Both the position numbers and the translations under genes were made by a program. Shown here piece after piece: positions 15,246 through 61,570 of a stretch of 64,000 bases of DNA (position 1 is its first letter; every line of letters begins with the position of its first letter). The notes below the pieces were generated by a model. It searched no databases and was not told the origin of the DNA. It saw only the letters and a program-made list of their open reading frames with translations. This stretch comes from Branchiostoma floridae (Eukaryota > Chordata > Leptocardii > Amphioxiformes > Branchiostomatidae), in NCBI RefSeq assembly GCF_000003815.2, contig NC_049981.1, positions 21,789,512 through 21,853,511 of the forward strand. The letters run 5' to 3'.

Positions 15246-15823
15246 GGTCGGCTCTGTGAGTGATAGTTAATCCATTGCGTGCCAGAGTGGACACGCAACC
15301 CGAGCTATTGGGGATATCTCTAGCATGTCCGCTCGTGCAAGTTATATACACTAGTGACTAGGGCCACAGCAAGTACATTTTATAAATTGCATCAGTAAAT
15401 ATTCGCCTGGCTTTTAAAAAAATAAGAAAAACATTTTTTCCTTTCCTGAGGTAATGAAACACATGCGAAGCTCAACGTATGCCACACGAGGTACTTGATA
15501 TTAAGGAATGTGCGTTTTTGTGATATTTTGTATGACTATTGTTAGTACTTGTAACTGTGGGATGTTACTGGAAGGCTCTGTGGGGCAACGTCTTGCCTTT
15601 GCAAGAAAGGCAAAACAAGCTTCAAATGCTCAATGGCGCAGTGTAGACTTCAAAATACACAGTGAACGACCAGTGTCAGACAGACGGTTTAGTGTTATGT
15701 CAGCGGAGGTACGCAAGCGATCTTGCATGCAGTCTTGGTTCAGCGACATTATCCGGGAGAGCTATGACTCTTGCATCTTCCTCAACAAGACTCTATTTCA
15801 GAAACGTGGCGTCTGAAACGTAA

Positions 15824-20919: not shown

Positions 20920-23290
20920 ATTACCCCTGCAATGGAAACGAGGCCCAGGCGTTTTAGTCCATTACACCACCTCGTCGACTACTCTATCGATCTCACGTGT
21001 ACCACACGAGCCGTGTCGGACCCATATCGACCACGGGAAGACAGGGTTTCGATCTCAGACCCGATCGATTGGAATGATGACCATCTGTGCGTGCAATTAC
21101 TGCCCCTTCCCTGCTGCGTGTACATTTGTATCGCTGAGTTGTTGATCCGTTTGGGTTTTTACGACTGGACATGTACGTTTTATTTTATTCCAGGCTCGCG
21201 AGCTGGGTGGTGATTACACGCAGAAGTCGTAAACCCTCCGGTGGTCAAAGGGGTCAAAGTGATATCAAATGTACAACATAGAATATCTGGGGTGGGATAG
21301 AAGAGAGTGGATAACAATTTTTTTTAAACGATTTAAGATACTCAAATTACACCGCAAGGCTGGCCGGAAAACATGTGAATACTTTTCAGAAATCTGACAC
21401 AATTTAAAGATGTACAATGTACCACTTATGTACAATGTACAAAAATGTACCACAAACTATATTGAACAGCTGAACGATGATTGTTAAGATATGCTTAGGC
21501 ACAGGTCCCGGCCAGGCTAAGCCCTTGTAGATGAACAAAAAAGTTTGAAGGTATGCAGGTCATATGGGGGAGCACTTCATTGTCGAATGGTCCGTGGAAG
21601 TACCCTTAGCACAATGACGCGAACCATTTTCAACGAGTCCTTGAACCACGAAAATAGCCCAAGCGGCACGTGATGGCAAGGCCAAGGACAAAATGGTGTG
21701 TTTCCGGTTTATACCCGACCGACTCTGGCAAAAACCTCTTGACTTCAGCCTGGAAAATAACATAGACAACATCTGTTTGATGAAACTTTGTATACTAGTA
21801 ATCATTTTCATCTTCTCATAATTTCTGTTACAACCGAAGTTCGTTTACAAAGAACCAGGTCCCCTTTGTGTCGACACACACACACACACACACAATTGAA
21901 ATATGATGTTGGAAATACCGGTGTCTTGATGCATTTCACTTTTATATACTGTATTTCTTCGCTCACTTCGACTGAAATCTGAAAAAAAGAATAATAAGAA
22001 ATAAGAGAATACCATGTACTGACCAACTGACCCTAGTTGGGTGGTTTTCAGGACCGCAATAAGAAAAACATGAAATTTTTGCTAGGCCCAATCTAGGCAC
22101 CCTCGCCTGGGTACCAATGTGTTATACTCGCTACCCTAAAAGTGTAAGGAGCCCCTGCAGAAATGAGATGGTACCCAGAGTTAAGGTGCACTCTCACCGC
22201 ACTTGCGTTAAGCTTGCGTCACTGCGGGATTCGTTCATTGCGTTAGTGCTTTGTTATTTTCTCCGATTCTTACATATTGCGTAATACGTAAAAATATGAC
22301 TTAGAAGACGACAAAATACACAAAAAGCAAGAAAATTCGTTCTTTATCTTTGAAACTTTCGTTGAGTCATCTACAAACCCCGCTGCACCGCATCGGTGCC
22401 CCAAGTGCAGTGAGATGCCACCTTTAGGAGCCCCGGTAGAAATGAGATGGTACCCGGAGTAACGTGCCCAGGATGGCGCGGGTTAACCCGGATTACCAGT
22501 TTACTCCCAACATCGGCATCCGAGTTGCTATGCTAACGCGTGTATCTCAAGGGGCCTCCAAACATCGATCGCACCTCGACGTGACAGGACACGAGCACAA
22601 AGTCCGCCAGTTTGTCCCGAGGTCACCGTGCTGCACACAGGTTAGACCGTTTAAGGTCTGTACTGACCTAGAGGAGAGTTTTCGCTCTCCATACGTATGT
22701 GTCAATGAAACAGGCAGGTGCCGACCGCTAGTCAGGTTACCATCCTCCGTAGTGACTGCTGGTTCAGGCTTTTTGCTTGCTAGATTGAAAAATGACTTTT
22801 ACATCTTTATAATCTATGCTTGGTTATATACACCTTTAACAAAGGTAACAATTTTGACAATCCAATCATTTACTACAAACACTTAGAAGAATTGTGACAC
22901 TTTCATAATAATTATGCAAAATAGTACATTTAGCTAATGCCTACGTCATATTTCCAAACCGAGGCCCAGCCGGGCAGCCTTCGCGAACGAAATGTACAAT
23001 ATAATAGACACCAAAGTACACAAGACGTAAAGAGAATAGTCGCTTACGGAATACTGACAAATGCTAGAAGCGTTTGGAGTAACTCTGTTTATTATCACCA
23101 GGGGGCGTTGTTTTTTCACAAGAGCTATTTTTTGTTTCCAAAGCTACTCGACTGGGCGCCAGGTTGGGAATTGGGACCTTGGCCTAAGAAGTGGATCAGA
23201 AGAAGTATTCCAAATACACTCGACCAAACTTATTAGAACAGTTCGTTCCGACAAAAATCATACACAGTTTATTAGTCTCAGCGTCACATC
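20920..23290. other. No gene seen
   Basis: Several open frames of 90-140 codons occur (for example 22,464-22,886, plus strand), but none has a recognisable domain or consistent splice context. GGTACCC-type motifs at 22,108, 22,168 and 22,448 belong to the repeat family at 15,824. Confidence 0.45.
21874..21894 (+). repeat. (CA)n microsatellite
   Basis: A run of about ten CA units. It is noncoding. Confidence 0.95.
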
Positions 23291-23965
23291 AATACGTTTC
23301 CCCCTTGCTCAGTTTGCAATCCGCTAACATCTGTCCATCGTCAAAACTTGAACCCGAAAGCCTCGATAAAAGTTGGAGCACGCGGCGAGAACAACATCGT
23401 GTGATAGGGAGACGCTGTTCCACATATGTCCTCCCCGCAAGCTTCCATCCTGCCTATAAGAAGTCGGATGCACTTGAGTCGGATGAGAATAGCCTCTACC
23501 AAGCTTCGTGGATCGGTGGTCTAATTGTAGAAATTGGACAAATAGAGTCTATAGTACGCTAGGGGAGTTAGCCGGCCTCAAGAGGACGATTCCTCACCTC
23601 CGTGGTGAGGATAATGATTCTACCGATCCACGGAGCCTGGTAGAGGCTAGGATGAGAAGTGTTCCCCTCACTCAGTTTGTCATGGATACGCTCACTACAT
23701 CTGTCCATCGTCACAACTTGAGCCTAAAGCCCAGATAAAACTTGGAGCACGCGGCGCGAACACCAGCATGAATGACAGAGCGAAGCTCGTCCACCTGAAT
23801 TCCTGATGTCCTCCCCACAATCTTCAATCCTGCCTATAAGAAGTCGGATGAGAAGTGTTCCCCTCACTCAGTTTGTCATGGATCCGCTCACAACATCTGT
23901 CCATCGTCAAAACTTGAACCTAAAGCCCAGATAAAACTTGGAGCACGCGTCGCGAACACCTCCCG
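23290..23965 (+). repeat. Tandem repeat, about 196-bp unit, three copies
   Basis: TGTCCATCGTCAAAACTTGA-like blocks start at about 23,332, 23,702 and 23,898. Each is followed by AAGCC..GATAAAA-TTGGAGCACGCG and preceded by CCCCTCACTCAGTTTG. The first unit is longer only because the MITE at 23,490-23,649 is inserted in it. Removing the element and one target copy restores a unit of about 200 bp. Confidence 0.85.
23490..23649. mobile_element. 160-bp MITE with 9-bp target-site duplication
   Basis: The left arm is TAGCCTCTACCAAGCTTCG, then TGGATCGGT. The right arm read in reverse is TAGCCTCTACCAGGCTCCG, then TGGATCGGT. The target site GGATGAGAA is duplicated exactly at 23,481-23,489 and 23,650-23,658. 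The uninterrupted site (GGATGAGAAGTG) is present in the neighbouring tandem unit near 23,846, which proves the insertion. Confidence 0.9.
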
Positions 23966-40100: not shown

Positions 40101-43100
40101 AGCCCTCCTCGGGCCCTATATCCTCATATATCCTGCGCACCAAAGTTGGGAGGTGCTTTCATCCTCCTGACCGACCGACATGCAGATCAACAGAAAGAAA
40201 AGTTTTTGATTACGCTGAAATTGTGCTGCATACTTAAACTCATGTTTAGACTCAGGTTTGGATTTAGGTCCAGAGGTCCAGGTTCAGGCCTGGATTTGTA
40301 AGTCCGGACCTGTACCCTTTGTTGGTTACAAATAAAATTGCATGCTGCCATAAATTTTACATTACAATTTAAAAAACAACAACAACACCTTTGCCTTGAA
40401 GTGGTATAATGACCTCGCTCTGAACAATCTCATTAAAAAGAAAGTTGAAGGAGTTTTTCTCTCACCTGACTCTGATCTCCCTCCCCTCCCGGCACCTCCG
40501 GTCTGTTCTGTAGGCGCTGTAAGTGTTGCTGTCGAAGGGCTGCCCACTGCTGCTGTAGTGTGATGGCCTGCTGCTGTTCCTGGGTCACAAGTTGCTGCTG
40601 TTCCTGGGTCAAGAATCGCTGCTGTTCCTGGTTTATGAATTGCTGCTGTTCCTGGGTCATAAGCTGCTGCTGTTCCTGGGTCATGAATCGCTGCTGTTCA
40701 GAGGTCATGAACCGCTGCTGTTCCGGGGTCATGAATCGCTGCTGTTCCGGGGTCATGAATCGCTGCTGTTCCTGTTCTTGGGTCATCAGCTGCTGCTGCT
40801 GTTCGTCATCAGCTGCTGCTGCTGTTCCTGGGCCATTAACTGCTGTTGCTCCCAGGCTGCTGCTTGTTGCTGCTCATGCTTCAACATTTGTTGCTGTTCC
40901 GGTGAAACAGCAGCAGCATTACCATCCCTGTCAGCTGGAACCTTCATGTACAGCTCGTTTGGATGTCTACCCTCTGGTCTCGGCACTCCTCTTGAGGTAC
41001 TCCCATAACTGGCCGCACCCTGCTCTTTAACAAGATTCCTTAAGTTACCAGCACTGATGGACCTTTTGTCCGTTGATGTCCCCACCATTCCCTCAGCTCC
41101 CTCCGGCTGCCTACTGGGCAGTTGTTGACCATACAGTGGTCCTTCTCCATACTTGAGCTGCCCCCTTAAAGCAGTTGAAGCTTGATTGTCACCCACCTGT
41201 CTTCCACTAAGGCCCAGCCTTTCTGCGTCCATTTGAGACTGAAGCAACTGCTCTCTGGTAGCTCCATAAACTGCATAATGAGTAGCACTACTAGGAATGT
41301 AGTCTCGATCCCTTCTCCTGGATTCCCTCCCCCTCCTTTGCTCCGACACTGCCTGGGCGTGGGCGGCTGGTCTGCCGCGACTGTGATCGATGGACACGTA
41401 GATGGGCTGCTCGGTCTGTCTCTGACTCCCAGACGTGTAAATAGGAACGTTCGTGGTGAACGCGCTTGGCCCGTTGCCCCCCACCTGGACTGCGTGTAGG
41501 ACGTTCTGCCTCTGGCTCGGCCTGGGATGCTCCCCCTGCCCCTGGATGCCGTCGGGAGGGCGAGTTTGGATGTTGCTGCGCACCACCGGCCCGTTGGGCA
41601 CCACGGGTCGAGGTCTGGGAAGGCCCTGTGGGGGTCTTCTTGACTCGTAGAACTGTTCTGTTGTCCTGGTGGGCGTTTTGGAACGACTTCCCTCCACCAT
41701 GCCGGGAGTGGGTGTCTTGGATCTTCTCTGTGCATGAGGCATTGGTCTGTTCCTCTGACTCATCTCCCCTGGGGTGGGGGTTTTCGACCTCCTGTTGTCC
41801 TCCCGAGGCTGCGCCCTGGGCGAGGGTTCGGGCGTTCTGGACCGGGGCCGCACCGGGGCGGCCTGATCGTCCGCAGCTACCCTTGGTTGCATGGATTCGT
41901 GGTGTGAGTGTCTTCTCTGGAGGTGTCGTAGCTTGGCCCTGTGTCGGGGATCTCTAGTATACTGCATCCCCTGTTGTCCTTGGGAATCCTTCTGTGAACC
42001 AGCACCCTCCCCAGGTGGCATGGCCCCCTCCGCCGGTGCCCGCTGTCCTCTCACTGCCTGTCCCTTCATTGGAAAAACAACGTAGTTGGAATTGGTCGTC
42101 TCAAGTCTCTGTCTCTCCTCCTTTGAATAAAAATGTTCAGGTGTCTTGGGTCGGCTGCCCCTCCTGGTGTCCTCCATACTGCGGGTTCTGGTGAGAGGAG
42201 AGGGGCTGCTCCTTGCAAAATGCGCGCCCACGTTTCCAGCTGCACCCGAGGGGCTGCTCCTTGCAAAATGCGCGCCCACGTTTCCAGCTGCACCCGAGGG
42301 GCTGCTCCTTGCAAAGTGTGCGCCCATGTTTCCAGCTGAACCCAAGACACTCCCACCCACAGCGCCCCCTGGAACAGCCGCTGCTGCCGCCGGTACTGCA
42401 GCACCTCTTGGCACCTGCAACGGAGATGATGGTTATCAAAATTAAATGTTTTAGGACAATAGTCCTGTGGGTTTAGTCGGTCTCACAGTGAATCATATGC
42501 TGATTATGATTTGTTTGCATCAGAATCATGTGGATTAACTCTAATCTCCAAGCAGATCTTGCGGTGGCATAAGATAGTGTCCTAAGCTTGAGGAAGGAGT
42601 GTAGCCGGCAGAGGAGTTTCATCGGCCACCGCCGGGTAATTCGCACTTTGGCCACCACCCAGGGTAATTCACACACTGACTCTTTGACCGGTGCGTTCTG
42701 CCACAGATCTTCGCGGTGGCCAATGAAACTTTCGGTCTGATTGCTGCCCTCCATCTGTCTCTGTCAAGGGGGTTGGCTTACTGTATGACTTGTGCAGTTT
42801 TCTAATATCCTCATTGACAATTTGCACCTTCTTCCTAACGAAATTTGATTGCCTGATAATATCCTTTGACCGGTGCGTTCTACCGCAGATCTTCGCGGTG
42901 GCCAATGAAACTTCTCTGCAGGCTTAACTCCTTCCCAAGCCTATGATACTATAGGAGCTTGGAGATTAGGTTAACTCCAACGGAGCATTGGGTTTAAGTG
43001 ATTTGTTCAAGTTCGTATTCTTTTGAGGTTTCGAATCTCCCCAGTTGGTAAAGAACGGTACACTGATACTTGCATTATGTACTTCTCATCAGCTCCCAGA

Positions 43101-49100: not shown

Positions 49101-52100
49101 ACAAGTGTAATATGTTTATAACATTTGAGGCTGAATCTGTTAGCAGTGCCTCCTACTAGAACAACCAAACTATTACTTCCTAACATTTTAGAAAATTCAA
49201 TATTCAGAAATAGAAGTTGGACCTACCAACACCTCCTGGACTCTCTTGTCCAAGGTCAATCAGGTCATTGCCACCCTTGTGTTTGCCCTCTGGTGACCTT
49301 AGATAACCTTGACCTGCAGAGGACCCTGCCACTGACCCCTGACCTTGCTGCTGCGGTGGTAGCGAAAACTCAATTAAGTTGTCCTGGTTGTTGCCCTGGG
49401 GCGCCATAGTGTAGGACCCTTCGATACTGGGGGACTCAAATGACAAGCTGCTTGTCGAGCTGGCACTGTTCCGATCCCCACTGCGGTAGCCGGAATCCCT
49501 CCAGTCCCCCGCGGCGCTCGCCCCCTGCATGATGTCCCCCCCTTGCCTACCAGCCGACACGTAACAGTAGTTTGGGTTCGGCTGGGGCACTCTCTGCTGA
49601 TCCTCCACGCTAGTGAACGACCCCGAACTCTCCTCACTGCTCCTGGAATAGATGGCCTGGTTGCCGACATGCGGCGGCCCGTTTTCCTTCTGCGAGCCGT
49701 GTCTGTGGAGGGCCAGCCTTTGATACTCCTCCACCTGTGGATTGTATGGCATCGGCTGGTACTCCGAACTGGGCACCGGAGTTCTACCGTCCATCCTGTC
49801 CCCCACGTATACCGTCTGTGGTTTGGACTGCACCATGCTGTAGTTTGCGGACGCGCCGCTACTTCTAGCCGCAGGGCTCTGGTTGTATTCCGCAGGCTGG
49901 CTCGTTTGAGGGATGTGAGTTGCATTTTTCTCGCTCACAGATCTACTACTTGCTTCAGGTCCGTAAGGTTGCGGGCTCCCAGGCCCCTGTTGGGTAAGGT
50001 ACACTAGATCCCCGTGGCTGTTTGACGCGGCAATGTTCCCAATGGAAGGGTCACTGGAGTGAACAGACAGGTTCTGCTTGAAGGTGGGGAAATTTGGGGC
50101 GCTGTTCTTCCTCTGCAGCAAGGCACGGCGGTCCTGCGGCCTGTTCGGTGATGTCATGACAAGCCCCTTTGTGTTCTGCGGACTATGCAGAAGGCTCTGC
50201 CTGAAATCTTCCTGCGGTTTCAGCTGTATCAAGTCCTGCGAGGGCCCTGACGCATAGGGGCTTCCAGTTCTTTGATTAGACTGTACACTACTTACTTGTA
50301 CATTCTGCTGAGTCTCTGGCTGAAACGTTCTGTAGTCGATCTGTGGGACCATTTTGATGTTGTCCGTCCCCTTCACGTTGTACGGACTCGACTGCTGCAT
50401 GGCCGCAGCGGACACAGGCATGTACGCTGGTTGACTACTGGTGGGATTGCCGTAGGTACCGACCTCACTCTGAATGTACCGATGGCTGGAAGAAGAGCTT
50501 TGGACGTGACTGGGAACGCTTGCGATGGCCTCAGCCCCCTGCGGTTGTCTCCTCGCACTAGTCTGTTGCACAAACAGATCATTATCAAAACTACCCGTCG
50601 GCGACGAAGGAGTGCTCTTGCTCTCATTACTATCGTTTCTCTGGTATCGCACGTAATCAGCTTTTACCCTGTCTTTCCCTTTCTTTGCACTGTCCTTTCT
50701 CACAAGCACTGTCTTCTTACTCGCACCGTCCTTTTGTGCCGGCCTGGAGTCAGGCTGTATCGGATGCGACGCCTGCCCGTTCTCCCAGTCCCGTTTCCCA
50801 GAGATCGGGGACACCGGCCCGTTGATGACATACTGCCCGTGGCTGCTGGAGCTGCGGGAACTCCTGGAGCTCTGCGAACTCTGCGACTTCACGCTCGCCG
50901 TGTCCGAGCCGCCCGACTTCCTCTTGGACTCCTTGTGGGAGGAGCCGGAGTGGTCCGACTTGCCCAGGGTGTGGGATGTGTAGCCGGATTGGCCGCTGGC
51001 GGAGGAAGACTTGCTCTTGTGGTGCGTTGGAGACACAGCAGGGCTCATCTTGGACAGACCTGTGAGTAACAGATTATATATAGCCATTACGGATAAAGTT
51101 CTGGGGGCTGAGTGGGTATAGGGGGTGTGGTGCGAACGTCCTGGAAGACTTCTGTGGATAGTTTTGTCAGGTTGGTACAACACTGGAGAATGAAGGTGTT
51201 TTTGTACCCAACAAAGTGTTATTTACCTAGCCCATGCATAGCTGCAGTAAGAAGTAGGAACCAGCCCTATGGAAGGTGATGACACAGTGACAGACCTCGC
51301 CACAAATTTAGCTCGGTAAATAACACTTTGTTATCTACCTGGAATACTTGTGTTGGTATAAAAAACAAACAACAAAAGCAGGAGAAAGATGCTGTTTAAC
51401 AGGAACGGCAAGGGGCGGTGAGGAAAGATACGACAGGGTGAGGGGCTGTGCAACCACCTGTGAAGTTTATGCTTCCAGTCTTTTGCTGAGAACATTTTCT
51501 TTTAAAACAAGGTCATGGTTAATCCATTGTGATCTATTTGTCGAATGTGCTTCACCCTGTCTAAGAAAAACCACCTAACTCTAGCTGTGACAGCACAAAA
51601 GTTCACTACTGCATGTTTGAAGGAACTGTAACGAAACATCAGTCATTGTACAGTCAGGTGATCCGATACCTTTACTTTAACATCGCCAGCTTTAATAGCA
51701 CAACTTTACATCATCAACCGCCATGCACAGCTCAGGGAAATACAAAGTTGTCCCTAGAGATTCTGATGTGTCAAAGTTGGCAAAAAGTGGCAACATCTTA
51801 TGGCCTCCTTCAGTCAATATTGACCATGGTAACATCACAATCTAGGTATCAAAACAACGTGGAACTGTTATTGTTTTGAAGCCTAAAATGGTGACATTAC
51901 ATTACTTGAAAACTTGAAATGTGGTAACTTTAGATTTCCTTCAAACACACTGCAGTGTACCTTAAGTTTGTTGGTGGGTTTGTGCCCCTCACATACAAGG
52001 ACTGTTCCTGATACAGTTTTGCTCACCGATGAATCACGCATGCTACAGGAGTCTTCCTGCTCACTTTGCACTCACGAAGGTGACAATTCTTCACTATCTG

Positions 52101-55100: not shown

Positions 55101-58100
55101 GAGAGCTGGCAGACTGTACGTCTAGAAGGAGATGGACCATCCCCCGGAGGGTCTTCTCTCCACTCGGGGCACTGCCGGCAGAAACAGCAACACGCCACGA
55201 GATGGAGGAGGCAGGGAGAGAACACAGAAGATGGCACGGGTGAGGGGGGCAAAGAAACACATGAAACAAAGTGTGAATGTTGGATGAAATGATCCAGGAG
55301 CGAGATAGATAGAGCAGGTCAGGTCCCAGTGGCTTTAGCTTGAGTGGAAAAATTTCAAAAATGATCTGGACTTTATTTTTGTCTTCAATATTGTACCTTC
55401 CAGTCCTAGGAATGTGAAAGTGATGTCGATCCTGTTTTGCTCACTTGAAGAGCTATTCTTCCACTGATTGTGACAGAGAAGACAAACTCTATGTACAGTT
55501 TTTTACATGTTCATTGTAACGGGGAAATTTCCGTAGCTCTTTTGACAAGCACAATAAACAGAGGACCACGTTAAATGTCCTGTCCTATATAAGGACAGTG
55601 TGCATATCAGGTGAGAGACACTGACAAAATCAATTCACGGCTTCTAGTTTCAGAAACAGGGCCGCTAACCATTGGACTATGCAAATAGGAATGCTGTTAC
55701 AGTTAAGTTTTGTTGTCTGATATTGTCAGTAGAACCAATGTACAGAAACTCTCTTACTGTGTGAATCTATGCTTTTCACTTGAGTTTTTCCCCCCAAAAT
55801 TAAGAATGTCGTCACTGACGCTTAGCATTGCAACTATATATGATAATATTAGCCACTAGGACCTGAGAAACAGAGGAAGAAATAATGATGGATGTTGGGA
55901 AAAGAAATAAAAAACAAATAAAGCAGGAAAAGCACAAAATAGCACAAAATAACAGGATGCTTCTAATCTGCATGATTCATGGTTTATTCTTGAACAAAAA
56001 CACAAGAAGCATGACAGTGTGACATTATGTACTGATCATGATTGTATAAAAACATGTACACACTGCTCTTGCATTTAGTTTCACTACAACAGTTACAGTA
56101 ACTCTATGTTAGTATTCTACTTCAACACACACAAATAATCACACATCTTGATGATTGGTAATACATGTATGTCATACTTGGGGATGCTGGAAAGAGAATC
56201 ACAAAAGAGCCACACTTGATTCGCCGGGTGTAAGTGTCACTGGTAAGTCTCTCTCTATATACATGTATTTGTGTGATGGAAATGACTGCCATGCCAATCT
56301 TGAATGGATTTTTGCACGTACATGTAAGTGCATCTGTGACCATTTGTAACGGGATTATCATAGTGAAGATTTTAGATATCAGTGCACAAAGAAAGCCTCA
56401 ACAGAGATGGCCCTCCGACACCGACCTTTGACCCCTTGCTGATGTCACATTTTGTCACATTTCCGGTGAGGATACGTGACACAGGCTTCGGGTCATCACA
56501 ATTTGAGCAGGGTCAGAGGACTCACTGAAAGCCTGCTGGTAGCTATAGGAGGTTTTCTTTGTGTACACTATGTACAATTAGGGATGGATACCGGTTCAGA
56601 CTTGTTCAGATTTCCAGTTTTTAAAAAAAGACGGTTCAAGGCCTTTCGTTTTTTTTACTCGGTTCTTGCATGTTGCACTGGTCTTAACCAGTCCAGTTGA
56701 ACTGATATCCACCCCTAGATACAATGTTTAAAATCTTCACTGTTTGGATGAATATTATGAAATATACGTTTTGAAGCAAGACTGCCATCTACAGCAAGCA
56801 GCCTTCAATGAGTGATAGGAACAACTGCAAGACTTTGATCCCGTGGCATTGTCAAAAGTCGGCATCATAATTTATGACAGTAGCTTGCTGATGACAACTG
56901 TGCAGTCAAGTTGTAAATTTATGAACCAAAGAAGCAGAAAAATTTGCATGTGGCATCCATGCCAAGAACCAATTTCTTTAAGTTTGCATCAACTGTACTA
57001 GAACTGTACCATACAGTTTCGAAAGCTGCTCTTTCCATCCTGTCAAATGTATTGTAATAGTAATATTAATAATATGTTTGACTAAGGTGGCATATCACTG
57101 TTAGTGGGAAAGGAATTTAAGACAGTCATGCAAAAAATATTACAATGCATAGAAAATACTAACACACCAAAATTTTAACTCCCTGTCATTGTAAAATTCA
57201 CAAACTTGCATGTTATGATGGAACTCAACACAACTATAGGAATTTCTCATTTTTCTCTGCTGCACAAATCTTCTTCTGATCCATTAAAATCATTCCTTGT
57301 TGTATCCTGTAACGTTATGATACACAATCAAAACAAAATGGATAAGAAACAACAAAATTCAAAAGCAACTAACACATCATGCCATTAACTACGTAGAAAA
57401 ATATTTTTAAAAACTGTACATGATGCATTCTGTGGTGGCATTGCTTATGATAAAGAAACAAAACATGACATCATATTAATGATTATTCCCACACAATATA
57501 TGGACAAGGGACTGTATTATCAACATTTTCCAGTTTAGTGCTTTAGTCCACATTATATAGTACCCATCCGCCGCTGGCAAGCTTCAACCCAATATTGCAC
57601 TTTCTGTCCCCCACAAAGTAACTGCCTTGGGGACTATCATTACATATTGAACCTCATCTTTCTTCGGTAATCTCATGGAAAATATTTCTTACCCGCCACG
57701 TAATTACGCTCGTGGCTTTACAAGAAGCGCTGAAATGTAATTAGCAAGTTACAACGCAAAGACGACACCCACCACAAGTCATGCAGAATGAATCAGCACA
57801 TAAGGCCACATACCAATTTAATTTGTTGGTTCTCGGATTTTAAAAAAAGATTTTCATAAACCCGTATCTAGAAAAATACAATGAAGCCTGAGGACCAGGT
57901 TTGTGCCTTGGTGCACTCATTTTTCTGTTAAACGGATTATGATGCAACTTGAGAGTTGAGACTGTATTATAGTCTCAAGTTGACACGATTTTTAGATCAG
58001 GGTACTACTTGTACATAATATGATATTATGCATTTCTTGGGGTGAATACAGCCATTTTCAAGTTTTCCACCCTACCTTAAAGATGTCTTCTTGCTATATT

Positions 58101-60298
58101 TTCACTTTCAAAAATCCGAGAAAACCAAGAAATTGAATTGGTATAATGGCCTAAACATCATGATCATGCATCACAACTTAGTATCATAGGAAGATTCACT
58201 GGACGTACGTTGTGCACCTTCCCCGTGGGTGTAGCCCGGCAGCATGGTGGTCTCGGTGGGAGCGGTCTCCGTGTTGACCGGAGAGCCGAAGTGATCGGCG
58301 AACAGCAGCAGCAGCGGCTGATAGTGGCCCTTCCTGCACTTCTCCACAACATCCTTCCATTTGCTGCCGATCTGTGGGGAGAGGATTAGATAGATAAGGC
58401 CACAGCAAGTAAATTTTATGGATGACATCAGTGCACTCATTGATTTTTGCCTGATTTCAGGAAAAAAAATTTTTTCCTCTTCAGGGATGGTCAGACATAC
58501 CAACGTCCTTCCATTTGCTGCCGATTTGTGGGGAGAGGATTAGATAGATAAGGCCTTAAGGGAAAAAAAAGTTGTGGTTCCTGTTTCAGTCCTGAAAAAA
58601 AATAGGGTCAGTAGGTAGGGATTATCTTTTTTTTTCTTCTTTCTGCACTGCTCTACAACGTCCTTCCATTTGCTGCCGATCTGTGGGGAGAGGATGAGAT
58701 AGATGAGGCCACAGCAAGTAAATTTTATGGATGACATTAGCACGCTCGCGCTCATTAATTTTTCGGATTTCAGAAAAAAAACAAGATTTTTTTTCCTCTT
58801 TGTGCATCACAGATACATTTATCCTTCATTAGACAGGACAAGCAGTGTTTTTAGTTCAATAGGAATTGGGCTGAAGTGACTCCACTGCCCACCCAAAAAA
58901 TGTCTAGGGTTGGCAGGTTTTTCTCAGGTAGGTAGGGAAACAGGAAACACAATCTTTTTTCCTAGGCCTAATGTCAGAGTTACGCCTTGCTGTGAACCAC
59001 AGCTGGGCAACCTTTTAAAAGGTTGATACGGTTTCACGTTGCCATTATAAGCTTCAGCATTCAATGATGAGACTTGCAGAGAAGAATGCACAATAGGATG
59101 GGGGGGGGGATGGAGCAACATGCAAGGCAACTGGGAAATACCGTCGGAATGTAAGCATGAGGCAAAAGAGTTAACTCCCAAAACACATCAAGAAGTTCAT
59201 GGTATTTGATGTTTGATACAGATCAACTATTTTAGAAGTGAACAATCATGCATTAGTAGCCTGAGCATTACATCAGCTGCTTGGACAATGTTCCTTTGGT
59301 ATTTCTGTTGGTTAATTTCGAAAAAACCTTATCTGAGGTAGACATCCCACATGAAAGAAGAGTATGAGAACCCTTCAAAGTCTTGTCATTACAGGGGGCT
59401 TAGTTGATAATTGGGTCTGAGGAAAGAACGGTGGCTGGAAAATGAGAGAGATTGACTCTCCATTCCGTTGCCTTGATTTTCCTTCCCTTTTGGAAGCATC
59501 TGTAGTCTAGACAGTCATGACTCATAGATAAAGTTGACACATTTTAACTTTCAAGTGTCAAAGTTAACATTGTTCAGGGCTGGTGTTCTACAAACCTTTC
59601 TAAAAAGTTTGAAAATACTCAGTGAAATAACACATTTTCAAAAAATACTTGCAAAGAAAATTCTTTAATGAAACAGGATGGGTATACTGAGCTACATTTG
59701 TACTTGAGCTAACTGATGGACAGCCATTCCCTTACTTTTAAACTACAGGCTGTGACTGCTGAGCATATGTTGATCAACCAAAGATTACAAGGAACAACTT
59801 TTTGTTTGTGTTGTGTCTTTTTGCATACTTTTACATCATGCATCATATTCCAATTATGAAATCAAGGTTATATAGATCCTATTTTGTTTGCTGTATGGTC
59901 TCTCAGCAATTGCCCTTCCAATTCTAAAATTTTGAAAAAGTTAAGAGCTTGAACACAAAGTATGCACAGACTATGCCATTATTTAAGCCAAAAAGTTAAC
60001 GCACCATCATGTTTTTTTTCCCTGTGAATGTTTCAGCTCCCTTTGTCAGGTCTGCGACCCCCCCCCCTCCAACTTAAAGATGCATAGTATTACGCTATTG
60101 GAGAATCAAACCATCGAAATTCATTTCAAACACACAATAATGCCTCACCTCCTTCACTGTGGCATCATCAAAGTAGATCCACGTTTTCAAGCGGGTGTGG
60201 AAGAAGAAGGTGGAGTAGTGCTTGCCGTAGTACGTCACCACCCCCACCAGGTGCAGGACCTTCCCTGCCGCAGAGTCGTCCACCACGGAGTGGAAAAC
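36003..60298 (-). CDS. USP53/54-like ubiquitin hydrolase, 3' ten exons (5' end outside the window)
   Basis: Ten minus-strand exons with matching phases encode about 2,000 residues, allowing for a 4-nt frame break in exon 40,466-42,414. The first two give the end of a USP fold ([35 protein letters not shown]), diagnostic of USP53/54. In USP terms the His of GKHY and the Asp of FDDA are catalytic-triad positions, both present. The Cys box must lie beyond 64,000. Vertebrate USP53 and USP54 were long called inactive and are now reported to cut K63-linked chains; USP53 is linked to tight junctions. The rest is a long, mostly disordered tail. VPPNVDW near the end resembles MPPDDDW near the human USP54 C-terminus. 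At about 2,000 residues without the N-terminus, it is longer than human USP54 (about 1,680). Confidence 0.9.
37622..37960. mobile_element. hAT-like MITE with 8-bp target-site duplication
   Basis: It starts CAGGGCTCTAGCCAGCGTCC and ends with GGCTGGCTAGAGCCCTG-type complement. TAACATAG flanks it exactly at 37,614-37,621 and 37,961-37,968. It lies in a USP-like intron. A relative is at 39,163. Confidence 0.9.
38019..38107 (-). CDS. USP-like exon: small Pro-rich exon
   Basis: 89 nt: [20 protein letters not shown], then [10 protein letters not shown]. The acceptor is CTTGTTGTAG, the donor is CATT then GTAAGT. The KPPPPTDVP stretch could be an SH3 or WW ligand (inference). Phases 1 and 0 fit the flanking exons. 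Confidence 0.87.
38590..38928. mobile_element. hAT-like MITE, CAGGGTTGGACAAGT ends
   Basis: The left end is CAGGGTTGGACAAGTCC; the right end read in reverse is TAGGGTTGGACAAGTTT. Internal GGGCAAGT motifs occur in both orientations. The right end is 22 bp from a USP-like exon (38,951). The target duplication is no longer clear. Confidence 0.75.
38951..39101 (-). CDS. USP-like exon: Gln/Lys helix
   Basis: 151 nt, phase 0 in and phase 1 out: [20 protein letters not shown], then [20 protein letters not shown] and [10 protein letters not shown]. The acceptor is TATGACGACAG, the donor is CATATG then GTTAGT. A likely helical segment. hAT-like MITEs lie close on both sides (38,590-38,928 and 39,163-39,448). 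Confidence 0.88.
39163..39448. mobile_element. Degraded hAT-like MITE (GTTCTAGCCAGC ends)
   Basis: The right end read in reverse is CAGGGTTCTAGCCAGCATCC; the left is TAGTGTTCTAGCCAGCC. Flanks ACTTCACG and GCTTCAGG match at 6 of 8 positions, as expected for an old 8-bp duplication. It belongs to the same family as 37,622. Confidence 0.65.
39600..40465. other. USP-like intron
   Basis: No exon was found. A-rich triplet repeats (AAC)n occur near 40,375-40,390, and GGTCCAGG/GGCCTGGA-type dyads near 40,260-40,310. Confidence 0.45.
40466..42414 (-). CDS. USP-like exon: repeat-bearing low-complexity region with a 4-nt frame break
   Basis: 1,949 nt from [18 protein letters not shown] to GGEGDQSQ, acceptor CCGTTGCAG, donor CAG then GTGAGAG, phase 0 at both ends. 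It contains three 48-nt repeats ([16 protein letters not shown]), several RSKTPTP-type basic/Pro motifs and, at the 3' end, an array of [15 protein letters not shown] repeats. At 40,804/40,805 one repeat unit lacks 4 nt compared with its neighbour, so the upstream frame stops at 40,786 while the open frame resumes at once one step over. Both frames are coding on their own sides, so the exon is one gene with a break or a sequencing/assembly error. Confidence 0.85.
40560..40850 (-). repeat. Coding Gln-rich tandem repeat array
   Basis: About ten units of 24-33 nt encode ATG-ACC-CAG-GAA-(CAG)n blocks ([23 protein letters not shown] and so on). Unit lengths vary in whole codons except for one unit at about 40,804 that lacks 4 nt. 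Confidence 0.9.
42203..42346 (-). repeat. Coding 48-nt tandem repeat, three copies
   Basis: Copies start at 42,203, 42,251 and 42,299 with exact 48-nt spacing. The first two are nearly identical, the third has several changes. Each encodes 16 residues ([16 protein letters not shown] or variants), so the array keeps the reading frame. Confidence 0.95.
42541..42968. mobile_element. MITE, CTCCAAGCAGATC family, with an internal direct repeat
   Basis: Ends CTAATCTCCAAGCAGATC and GGAGCTTGGAGATTAG are complementary, and TTAACT flanks both sides. Inside, a block of about 50 bp (CTTTGACCGGTGCGTTCT, then GCAGATCTTCGCGGTGGCC) occurs at about 42,682 and 42,862. Confidence 0.75.
43575..43806 (-). CDS. 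USP-like exon: linker with Gln-rich helix
   Basis: 232 nt encoding [20 protein letters not shown], then [20 protein letters not shown] and [20 protein letters not shown], ending MAAARVQQ. The acceptor is CCACTGCAG. The donor CAGCAG then GTCTGG has a weak +3 to +6, which may allow variable splicing. Phases fit both neighbours. Confidence 0.88.
43863..44094. mobile_element. Hairpin MITE with arms of about 100 bp
   Basis: The left arm begins CTCATATAGTAAA, then CTTTTAAACACAACCAG, CAGACACCATCATC and GTTAGAATGACTGGATCTGC. The right arm is the reverse complement of these in the same order and ends TTTACTATATGAG. The loop is about 35 bp. It sits 57 bp upstream of the exon 43,575-43,806 acceptor. 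Confidence 0.85.
44615..44634 (+). repeat. (AC)n microsatellite
   Basis: A short pure AC run in a USP-like intron. Confidence 0.9.
44782..45001. mobile_element. MITE, CTAGTTCACCTTTAT family, copy 2
   Basis: The right end is GATAAAGGTGAACTAGCATTA; the left end (GCAATGCTGG, then TTTGCCTCTATC) is more diverged. The internal order matches copies 1 and 3, including the TTTTTAAA-like and AATATTGCA motifs. Confidence 0.7.
45010..46640. other. USP-like intron
   Basis: No exon was found. AT-rich, with short open frames on both strands that have no splice support. Confidence 0.45.
46642..47129. mobile_element. Inverted-repeat element, CCCCTTTCCACTAG family, long copy
   Basis: The left end ACCCCCTTTCCACTAGAAGG matches in reverse the right end CCTCTCGTGGAAAGGGGTT. 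Internally, GGAGCAACC motifs appear in both orientations. The shorter relative is at 60,375. Confidence 0.6.
47130..47805. other. USP-like intron
   Basis: No exon other than the one ending at 47,809 was found. Sequence is AT-rich. Confidence 0.4.
47809..47998 (-). CDS. USP-like exon: MIT-like helix, second half, and basic SRSLHRR segment
   Basis: 190 nt reading [20 protein letters not shown], then [20 protein letters not shown] and [15 protein letters not shown]. The acceptor is CTATCTCTAG, the donor is GTCAA then GTAAGG, phase 2. RSRSLHRR is a recognisable conserved element (vertebrate USP54 has KARSLQDR at this point). Confidence 0.93.
48245..48480 (+). repeat. tRNA-derived SINE
   Basis: GTCCCTGTAGCTCAACTGGTAG is tRNA-like (A box). 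A B-box-like CTGATTCAAATTCTGGG follows about 100 bp on, after an ACATGTAC-rich insertion. The body GGGCATCTTGGTTGGG, then CCAGTCTT..GAAGGGACGTGAAAT, matches the fragment at 15,163. Confidence 0.65.
48525..48620 (+). repeat. Interspersed repeat shared with 62,955-63,055
   Basis: CCTTTGTTTATTCATGAAAG and ACAGGTTGCTTTTCATTAAG, then GGGAAGAGGCAA, occur at both places with few changes. The alignable length is about 85 bp. Confidence 0.8.
48746..48859 (-). CDS. USP-like exon: MIT-like helix, first half
   Basis: 114 nt encoding [20 protein letters not shown], then [18 protein letters not shown]. The acceptor is TCCGTGTGCAG, the donor is CATCG then GTAAGT. The pattern of an amphipathic helix, then GDLASAL and a second helix matches the helical repeat in vertebrate USP54 (a GDCAAALALCNEAI-type sequence), which resembles MIT or TPR-like hairpins. 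Confidence 0.93.
49227..51059 (-). CDS. USP-like exon: long Ser/Gln-rich disordered region
   Basis: 1,833 nt. After the acceptor TTACTCACAG it reads [20 protein letters not shown] and continues through Ser-rich, basic and Gln/Pro-rich sequence to [13 protein letters not shown]. No folded domain is recognised. KRDWENGQ and the Ser clusters recall the RDWE and Ser-rich stretch of vertebrate USP54. The donor is GTTG then GTAGGT, phase 1. An ATG 124 nt upstream of the acceptor opens the frame further, but that part is intronic. Confidence 0.92.
51060..54639. other. USP-like intron (first part of the large 51,060-58,208 intron)
   Basis: No exon was found. The adjoining exons splice in phase, so no missing exon is required. 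Direct repeats of about 60 bp (GGACTTG.ACCAACCC.TGCTTTTATTGC) lie at 54,353-54,415 and 54,495-54,550. Confidence 0.5.
54640..55063. mobile_element. Inverted-repeat element with GGCCATGTTGATTTGATTA ends
   Basis: The left end AAGGCCATGTTGATTTGATTA matches in reverse TAATCAAATCAACATGGCC on the right. The left arm and the downstream TTCGACCAT motif also resemble 30,437-30,535 in the desaturase intron. Confidence 0.6.
55425..55683 (-). repeat. tRNA-derived SINE, second full copy
   Basis: It matches 29,340-29,583 over its whole length, with the head (GCATAGTCCAATGGTTAGCGG on the minus strand) and the body markers GTGATGTCGATCC, GAAGAGCTA and GTGACAGAGAAGACA. The B box is more decayed than at 29,340. 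Confidence 0.75.
55690..57800. other. USP-like intron, with one small MITE
   Basis: No exon was found. It holds the element at 56,579-56,717. The rest is AT-rich. Confidence 0.45.
56579..56717. mobile_element. Short hAT-like MITE (TAGGGATGGAT ends)
   Basis: TAGGGATGGATACCGGTTCA on the left matches in reverse TAGGGGTGGATATCAGTTCA on the right. The flanks TGTACAAT and GATACAAT agree at 6 of 8 bases, consistent with an old 8-bp duplication. Confidence 0.65.
57804..58151. mobile_element. MITE, ATACCAATTTAATTTGTTGG family, copy 1
   Basis: The left arm GGCCACATACCAATTTAATT, then TTCTCGGATTTT, pairs with the right arm ending AATTGGTATAATGGCC. TAA adjoins both ends, as expected for a Harbinger-type 3-bp target. 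It ends 58 bp from a USP-like exon. Confidence 0.75.
58209..58371 (-). CDS. USP-like exon: end of catalytic domain
   Basis: It encodes [20 protein letters not shown], then [13 protein letters not shown] and a short linker ending GYTHGEGAQ. The acceptor is CTCCCCACAG and the donor is CACAAC then GTACGT, phase 1. It joins in frame to the exon starting at 51,059 (CGT, Arg). The 5' boundary of this exon is repeated twice just upstream, at 58,501-58,555 and 58,635-58,800. Confidence 0.93.
58501..58555 (-). repeat. Decoy copy B of the USP-like exon 58,209-58,371 boundary
   Basis: 55 bp repeat the intron end and the first 24 exon bases (codons IGSKWKDV). The acceptor AG has become AA (CCCACAA), so it cannot be used. 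The copied bases are followed by GTTG then GTATGT, a good donor. Confidence 0.88.
58635..58800 (-). repeat. Decoy copy C of the same exon boundary
   Basis: About 165 bp repeat the intron and exon start. The acceptor CCCCACAG is intact and the exon part encodes [14 protein letters not shown] before running into an A-rich tract and a stop. The [12 protein letters not shown] part is missing, so use of this copy would truncate the protein. Confidence 0.9.
58810..60148. other. USP-like intron
   Basis: No exon was found. Poly-G (59,101-59,109) and poly-C (60,060-60,067) runs are present. Confidence 0.45.
60149..60298 (-). CDS. USP-like exon: catalytic-domain His box
   Basis: 50 codons, phase 0 at both ends, acceptor TTTGCTTCAG, donor GAAGGAG then GTGAGG. 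It encodes [20 protein letters not shown], then [20 protein letters not shown] and [10 protein letters not shown]. The histidine of GKHY aligns with the USP catalytic His and the FDD with the third triad residue. This is the first exon of the gene visible in the window. Confidence 0.95.
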
Positions 60299-60374
60299 CT
60301 GAAGCAAAGAAGCGGTTAGTGTGTTCCAGGAGATGAAGACATTAGAGTCAAGACATATCAACTTCTCAGTAATA

Positions 60375-60593
60375 CCCCCTTTCCACTAGGACGGTGCTCA
60401 AATTTGACATATCACTCAACGAATTGTATCAAAAGGAAACAAATCTTGTTACACTTTGTGCATTTTGTTGTCTTCTCAATCACACTTTTATGCTTTGTAT
60501 GACATACCCAGTATGAAAGTGAAGGTTACACATATCCTATGTCCTAGGTCGCAGTGAGAGCGCAGCACAATCGCTGTCCTAGTGGAAAGGGGG
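60375..60593. mobile_element. MITE, CCCCTTTCCACTAGGAC family, short copy
   Basis: Left CCCCCTTTCCACTAGGACGG pairs with right TGTCCTAGTGGAAAGGGGG. It is about 220 bp with no coding frame. Confidence 0.8.
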
Positions 60594-60599
60594 CCTAAG

Positions 60600-61570
60600 T
60601 AAGTAAGTCATAAGTTATAAGTTATACCGCCCCTTGCGAGGTGACATACCCTTTCTTTGGCTGATACAAGATGGGGTGCGCCAGGTCTTCCGTCTAGGAG
60701 AATGATGTAAATCACCGTTTTGTACGGTCAACTTCTCAAGCTGACCAACTGTCATGCAGCAATGCTGGCAGCTGCCCATTTGCTCATAAAGACGCAACAT
60801 ATAGGTCTGGCTCTAGACGAGTGAGGGATCAGAGCCCTCGAGCCATAACCTGGACCATTCATCTTTCCCTCCCGTTTTAGGGTGGACCTTTATTGTTGGG
60901 TTCCATTACCCTCTCAATACCTTCTCTGGCCTGTGCCGTTCATAACTTGGCTGTTTGAAGACACTGAAGACATATGTGCTATTCGCTTCATCCATACTTA
61001 CACCGCGGAGGCACGGGGGAAACGGTCCCGTAGGAAAAGGGCCGGCTTTAGTAAAGGACCAGGGGTCATTATTAAAAGGACAAGGTCGTGCCCTTGAAGG
61101 AGTAAACTTGCCGTTGATCCTTCTCAAGATGTGGAGCCTGTCACAGCGGCGATACCGAACCCCCGCTGCCACCACATTTAGCTGACACGGCAATGACATA
61201 TGACGAGTATTTGTTAAGGGGTTATTGCCAGATGAAATATGCCTATCGCATTTTGCGGAGACCAGGCGCAATCAATTCTTGAAGCCTACCATGCCATAAG
61301 GGAAAAAAAGTGCACAGGCATGCCATCAGCAAAATCAGGGGGAGACACAGCCAAGCATGAACAGCCTGAAGCACCGGCTTGGGGCATAATAGCATATTAG
61401 GGGGGCTCCGCCTCAGTCAAGTGTGCACACTTATAGAACAGATGTGCATTTTGCGCAATTTGGACTCTGAGCTATGAAAGCTCAGCTAGGTATAATTGTA
61501 GGTTTTCCTTCTGCTTTCCCTGTGCCATGTAAAACTGTGATAAACAAGTTTGCAAGAGAATGTCTCACAA
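60600..61570. other. USP-like intron; no exon recognised
   Basis: The open frame at 60,906-61,271 has no recognisable domain. No upstream USP exon (Cys box, zinc-binding CXXC pairs) was found here. Confidence 0.4.

Follow-up and report, generated by a model that had tools for sequence, protein, structure and literature searches.

Three copies of a USP54-like exon boundary in Branchiostoma floridae, one of them within a MITE-like element

In animals, host fragments that lie between the ends of an element with terminal inverted repeats (TIRs) have been described as Pack-TIRs (PMC8277862). According to excerpts of this survey, single-copy Pack-TIRs are mostly explained by gap filling, in which a break in the element is repaired from nearby DNA; 160 of the 281 unique cases (56.9%) lie no more than 15 kb from their parental copy, and the captured pieces have a median size of 224 bp. 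For amphioxus, excerpts of a second report describe non-autonomous elements of the Harbinger type, with Harbinger-N11 located beside an opsin gene, and a miniature inverted-repeat transposable element (MITE) in a gained intron (PMC5802833). Events of the general kind considered here, local duplication and filler of the Pack-TIR type, are known from animals already. We characterized a locus in a 64,000-nt stretch of Branchiostoma floridae contig NC_049981.1 (referred to as the window) in which the boundary of an exon of a USP54-like gene is present three times. The roughly 600 bp of intron in front of this exon probably contain a scar of transposon-associated local duplication and repair that carries no selected function. 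Among the matches listed for amphioxus tandem exon duplication, intragenic duplication and splice sites, MITEs in introns, Pack-TIRs and duplicated acceptors, this locus was not described; in the excerpts of one listed article (PMC8819188), ‘duplication’ and related words matched twice, in the reference list only.

The gene lies on the minus strand, and coordinates are given on the plus strand. The exons and boundary copies are:

60149..60298, minus strand: upstream USP54-like exon (VFHSVVDD...DDATVKE), which joined with exon A matches 8c61
58209..58371, minus strand: exon A, the genuine exon, with its start at 58371 and the acceptor AG at 58373-58372; 3′ end uncertain
58347..58401, minus strand: copy A, the genuine boundary (the 55-bp unit described below)
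58501..58555, minus strand: copy B, acceptor lost, with CACAA in place of CACAG
58639..58806, minus strand: copy C in its extended form (42 bp of exon, 26 bp of intron end, GGCC, TE2-like repeat)

The three copies belong to one family with a 55-bp unit, made up of 25 bp from the start of the exon, 26 bp from the end of its intron and the tetranucleotide GGCC; in copy C this unit occupies 58656-58710. Over the 55 sites, A and B differ at two positions, and C differs from either of them at three, which amounts to 96% identity with A for B and 95% for C. An initial annotation of this DNA had proposed a threefold exon boundary with the genuine exon starting at 58371, and both statements were borne out. 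Its description of the extra copies also agrees with what we found: C retains an intact acceptor AG at 58682-58681 and a coding piece ahead of an A-rich tract, and an exon starting from it would begin at 58680, while B is devoid of its AG and its exon piece is directly followed by a donor-like GTATGT (58500-58495, minus strand). The A-rich tract was said to truncate C; the tract is present, but the reading frame runs on for 32 residues to a TAA at 58540-58542. Between A and C the match is longer than the 55-bp unit. Positions 58330-58481 align with 58639-58800 at 84.1% identity over 164 columns including gaps, and the homology is far beyond chance, as its E-value is 1.3e-43. The shared parts comprise the exon (38 of 42 positions identical), the intron end with GGCC (28 of 30) and the TE2-like repeat (75 identities in 84 aligned positions, with 17 further columns as gaps). 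The array is a genuine triplication of the exon boundary, with one copy within a MITE-like element. It had originally been confined to 58341-58800; it does lie there, but this span is too narrow, since C is part of an element that extends from 58552 to 58968. The element and the repeats associated with it are:

58552..58968, plus strand: MITE-like element with inverted ends GGCC...GGCC, 417 bp, with TAA at 58549-58551 and at 58969-58971
21680..22088, minus strand: second element, sharing both ends with the first and flanked on either side by CAA (in plus orientation); interior and flanks unrelated
58398..58500, plus strand: TE2-like repeat (GGCCACAGCAAGTAAATTTTAT...), adjoining the genuine acceptor, after TAA
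58807..58898, plus strand: remainder of the element interior, 92 bp

Copy C is located wholly within the 58552-58968 element, whose left end forms the spacer between B and C. GGCC ends are typical of Tourist-like MITEs. The left end of the element resembles the reverse complement of its right end (z = 9.9, 0 of 500 shuffles), and both ends recur, with z = 9.7 and 11.0 (0 of 500 shuffles each), in the element at 22088-21680. No similarity was found between the interiors of the two elements (388 of 500 shuffles scored as well) or between their outside flanks (343 and 291 of 500 shuffles). C is therefore enclosed by ends that recur in an element with a different interior and different flanks, which speaks for the repair scar. 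In the self-comparison of the window, 58915-58969 matches 21737-21679 (E = 2.3e-5) and 58545-58644 matches 22095-21997 (E = 0.001). Hidden-Markov matches came from models that included the matched copies; the element rests on these self-comparison matches and on the shuffle tests. In the 64-kb window and in 60 shuffled windows we also looked for GGCC...GGCC pairs whose members are separated by 80-900 bp and bordered by identical trinucleotides. Five pairs were found against a mean of 6.1 in the shuffled windows, so that GGCC pairing alone is uninformative. However, two of the five pairs (57804-58151 and 58552-58968) reached an end-similarity score of at least 14, which occurred in none of the 60 shuffled windows; the element at 21.7 kb has a score of 7. 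The first of these two pairs is a 348-bp inverted-repeat element that begins and ends with GGCC, is flanked by TAA on either side and follows closely behind exon A in the direction of transcription. Ahead of the 60298 exon in that direction, perfect 18-bp inverted repeats (CCCCCTTTCCACTAGGAC) stand 183 bp apart at 60375-60593, which looks like a further small TIR element.

The interior of the 58552-58968 element spans approximately 58640-58898 (259 bp). It holds the TE2-like repeat of copy C, which stands beside the genuine acceptor as well; the repeat there (58398-58500) has a similar stretch at 15359-15461 (65%, E = 2.3e-5). The other end of TE2 was not found, and no full element could be assembled from it; other, weak matches lie at 54.65 kb and 18.4 kb, both with E = 0.05. 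The remaining 92 bp at 58807-58898 showed no similarity in any of three comparisons, made with the interior of the second element, the sequence that follows the 15.36-kb repeat, and the spacer tail of A.

How could copy C have come to lie between the two ends? The copies, the element ends and the 3-bp direct repeat are seen directly; gap filling and the order of events we infer from them. A small Harbinger- or MITE-like TIR element would have sat in the intron at a TAA, beside the exon-edge copy B. The element would then have suffered an internal break and been mended with a copy of the exon boundary next to it; this filler, enclosed by the two ends, would be C. The distance of only 309 bp between source (A) and filler (C) argues for such a course. 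Copy B, which borders on the TAA|GGCC edge of the element on one side and ends in the middle of the exon sequence on the other, would have arisen by a separate local duplication of smaller extent, the edge of which came by chance to lie against GTATGT. As an intact acceptor was copied along into C, two equally strong 3′ splice sites would since then have stood in series.

This scheme has much in common with a Pack-TIR: a host fragment lies between two TIR ends, a short direct repeat stands outside, and the source is near. Excerpts of the survey state that exon-containing fragments are over-represented, and copy C carries exon sequence (PMC8277862). As the survey demands, each flank takes in 10 bp or more of the termini of one element, judged by the match of the ends to each other and to the element at 21.7 kb, and the interior of 259 bp falls into the required range of 100–5000 bp. 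However, the identity to the parent is 84.1% over 164 columns where at least 90% is asked for, and only about 168 of the 259 interior bases match the parent where the internal length should amount to 80–120% of the parental length. Moreover, the parent should have no transposable element within 100 bp, but A adjoins B, the element begins at 58552 and the TE2-like repeat lies within the match itself. Since the locus departs from the survey in these three respects, we did not file it as a Pack-TIR; the extra copy B outside the element is a further difference. Short length, inverted ends and a 3-bp direct repeat, which is TAA at both 58552-58968 and 57804-58151, are shared with MITEs of the PIF/Harbinger superfamily as excerpts of two reports portray them (PMC4482050, PMC2572040). 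In the first of these excerpts the PIF/Harbinger target is given as TWA (PMC4482050), which fits TAA but not the CAA at 21680-22088; the assignment of TIRs and target-site duplications derives from two copies.

Several observations weigh against a repair scar. Only two copies of the element were seen, they have unrelated interiors, and an uninterrupted element at this place is hypothetical. The CAA beside the second copy departs from the TWA of PIF/Harbinger, and the 92 bp at 58807-58898 are unexplained. Furthermore, the start-to-start spacing of the 55-bp copies is 154 and 155 bp, near-equal values that occur despite unrelated spacer sequences; copy B and this spacing together require a second event or a coincidence. 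Finally, the acceptor of C is intact and level with the genuine one, and three of the four exonic differences between A and C are synonymous (the fourth changes K to Q), although four changes cannot decide.

The spacing would be more readily accommodated by plain local duplication, in which the exon edge was copied at least twice by tandem duplication or template switching and the transposon ends are incidental, having been inserted later or carried along, again without any function. The adjacent TE2-like repeat that A and C both carry is in line with this proposal, and so is the background of the window, in which local direct duplications are frequent. Direct repeats no more than 600 bp apart (self-BLAST, E up to 1e-4) were found at 14 loci including this one and cover 2839 of 64,000 bases (4.4%). 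If 20 exon boundaries were scattered randomly, a number that was assumed and not counted, the chance of at least one boundary being hit would be 60%. Two other such regions are a cluster of local direct duplications at 23301-23960, where one pair of 115 bp has 95.7% identity at a distance of 196 bp, and a set of overlapping direct repeats with 72–76% identity at 40549-40852, whose divergence suggests an old, degenerate tandem array. In addition, excerpts of the Pack-TIR survey indicate that a source is dropped when a transposable element lies no more than 100 bp from it, as segmental duplication then becomes indistinguishable (PMC8277862). However, we found no homology between the A–B spacer and the B–C spacer (375 of 500 shuffles scored as high in global and 44 of 500 in local alignment), and the spacers of B and C, both of which are T-rich, gave a marginal result (18 of 500 and 5 of 500, respectively). 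The non-homologous spacers of A and B rule out a clean tandem triplication of a 155-bp unit as the whole story, and Tandem Repeats Finder reported no tandem array in 57600-60600. Three boundary copies are present, as had been proposed, but not as clean tandem copies. Plain duplication also does not predict that C is framed by matching inverted ends with equal TAA flanks. We regard it as the main rival of the repair scar, but as rather unlikely.

Another origin would be an assembly artefact, in which haplotypes or repeat copies were misjoined. In its favour, repeats abound in the window (48 self-match pairs). However, the copies carry private changes, diverge by 4–16% and have different spacers, and the element has matching TAA flanks; we consider an artefact of this kind extremely unlikely.

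In a comparison of the two joined exons (60298-60149 and A) with PDB, residues 1-89 matched 8c61 (human USP54) with E = 7.3e-36, and the next match reached only E = 0.66. The YYGKHY motif of the joined exons is also present in 8c61; we take its His to be the catalytic His. With the Pfam UCH model the genuine two-exon fragment scored 20.6 bits, below the cut-off of 23.9, as may be expected since only a fragment was scored. Judged by this homology, which covers the exons for the C-terminal part of the USP core, the host is a putative USP54-like gene of the USP53/USP54 deubiquitinases. Excerpts of a recent report state that USP53 and USP54, once annotated as inactive, are active K63-directed deubiquitinases (PMC12037411). 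An open frame of 672 residues, rich in Ser and Gln, lies on the minus strand at 49204-51222 and is a candidate for a long C-terminal exon of this gene.

Splice sites were scored in the region 58200-60320 with Shapiro-Senapathy-type matrices, which are human-based and give rough scores. The donor of the upstream exon (GAG|GTGAGG, phase 0) ranks first of 109 GTs. The acceptors of A and C score equally and are joint first of 117 AGs, and branch-point-like motifs precede both of them, CTAAT at A and CTCAT at C. The GTATGT of copy B ranks fifth of the 109 GTs; it is the best one between C and A and scores above both candidate donors of exon A (58208 and 58217). Further acceptor-like sites between C and A are found at 58591 and 58554 (fourth and sixth of 117). 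The C acceptor and the B donor delimit a candidate exon of 180 nt (58680-58501) and leave an intron of 129 nt before A. The stop codon that closes the frame is:

58540..58542, minus strand: in-frame TAA closing the frame from the C acceptor, nucleotides 139-141 of the 180-nt candidate exon

Poison exons are cassette exons coupled to nonsense-mediated decay. With an acceptor motif, a length of 180 nt, an in-frame stop and a donor motif, the candidate exon has the sequence parts of such an exon. If it were a live poison exon or splice decoy, its inclusion would lead to decay of the transcript and thereby set the level of the USP54-like enzyme. The ranks of the two sites, the stop, the 129-nt intron and the branch-point-like motifs would all suit this role, but the donor is at chance expectation. 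A donor as good as that of B is found 30-308 nt downstream of 47% of random minus-strand and 45% of random plus-strand positions, and such a donor is therefore expected once an acceptor has been copied. Strong acceptors were followed by one in 9 of 14 cases on the minus strand (C and A included) and in 3 of 8 on the plus strand. The roughness of the human-type scores also tells against the idea.

Nor is conservation of copy C in excess. Substitutions separate A and C at 6 of 72 sites of the exon-boundary part and at 9 of the 84 spacer sites, and these rates do not differ (Fisher p = 0.79). The longest identical run, 35 bases spanning the C acceptor, has P = 0.36 when the 7 differences are placed randomly in the 101 ungapped columns, and the acceptor region from −20 to +3 has one difference versus 1.6 expected. 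Human USP54 has K at the site of the K-to-Q change, which identifies C as the derived copy there. In these comparisons copy C gave no signal of selection; the open frame and the splice-site motifs are there to be read, and an absence of function is what we infer. We therefore judge a live poison exon or decoy to be very unlikely. The same low credence applies to the more far-reaching idea that the transposon captured the host gene's own next acceptor as repair filler and so created, in nearly one step, a poison exon that tunes or lowers USP54-like output; this strikes us as highly improbable. Of the two options first put forward for the array, decoy or poison exon on the one hand and recent duplication on the other, the duplication is retained in a refined form, with C in a transposon-like element; a decoy is anatomically possible, but a decoy function is unsupported.

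Under the repair-scar reading, accidental inclusion of C as splicing noise, perhaps as the 180-nt exon with its premature stop, is plausible from the motifs. Use of C had been predicted to delete the final strand of the USP core, which is correct for the genuine residues; the frame from C happens to supply a hydrophobic stretch. With the tail encoded by C (58540-58680) the Pfam UCH score was 24.5 bits, compared to 21.2 without a tail, 20.7–22.8 with eight shuffled tails and 20.6 with the genuine exon. Although the C tail surpassed all eight shuffled tails, we take this as a coincidence of T-rich DNA and rejected a structural rescue. An alternative last exon at C was dismissed as well: a minus-strand scan from C to A for six types of poly(A) hexamer yielded a single CATAAA, at 58420, and none of the other five. 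Tandem exon duplication with mutually exclusive splicing, as described in excerpts of two reports (PMC9013439, PMC9741552), shares the repeated exon sequence with this locus. However, neither extra copy is a whole exon here, since B has no acceptor and C has no donor of its own.

For annotation the locus is a warning, as a gene predictor might settle on the acceptor of C and cut the USP domain short. It also illustrates how the repair of a small transposon could set a second, equal acceptor in front of an exon, a direct path by which a transposon could give rise to alternative splicing or weaken an allele.

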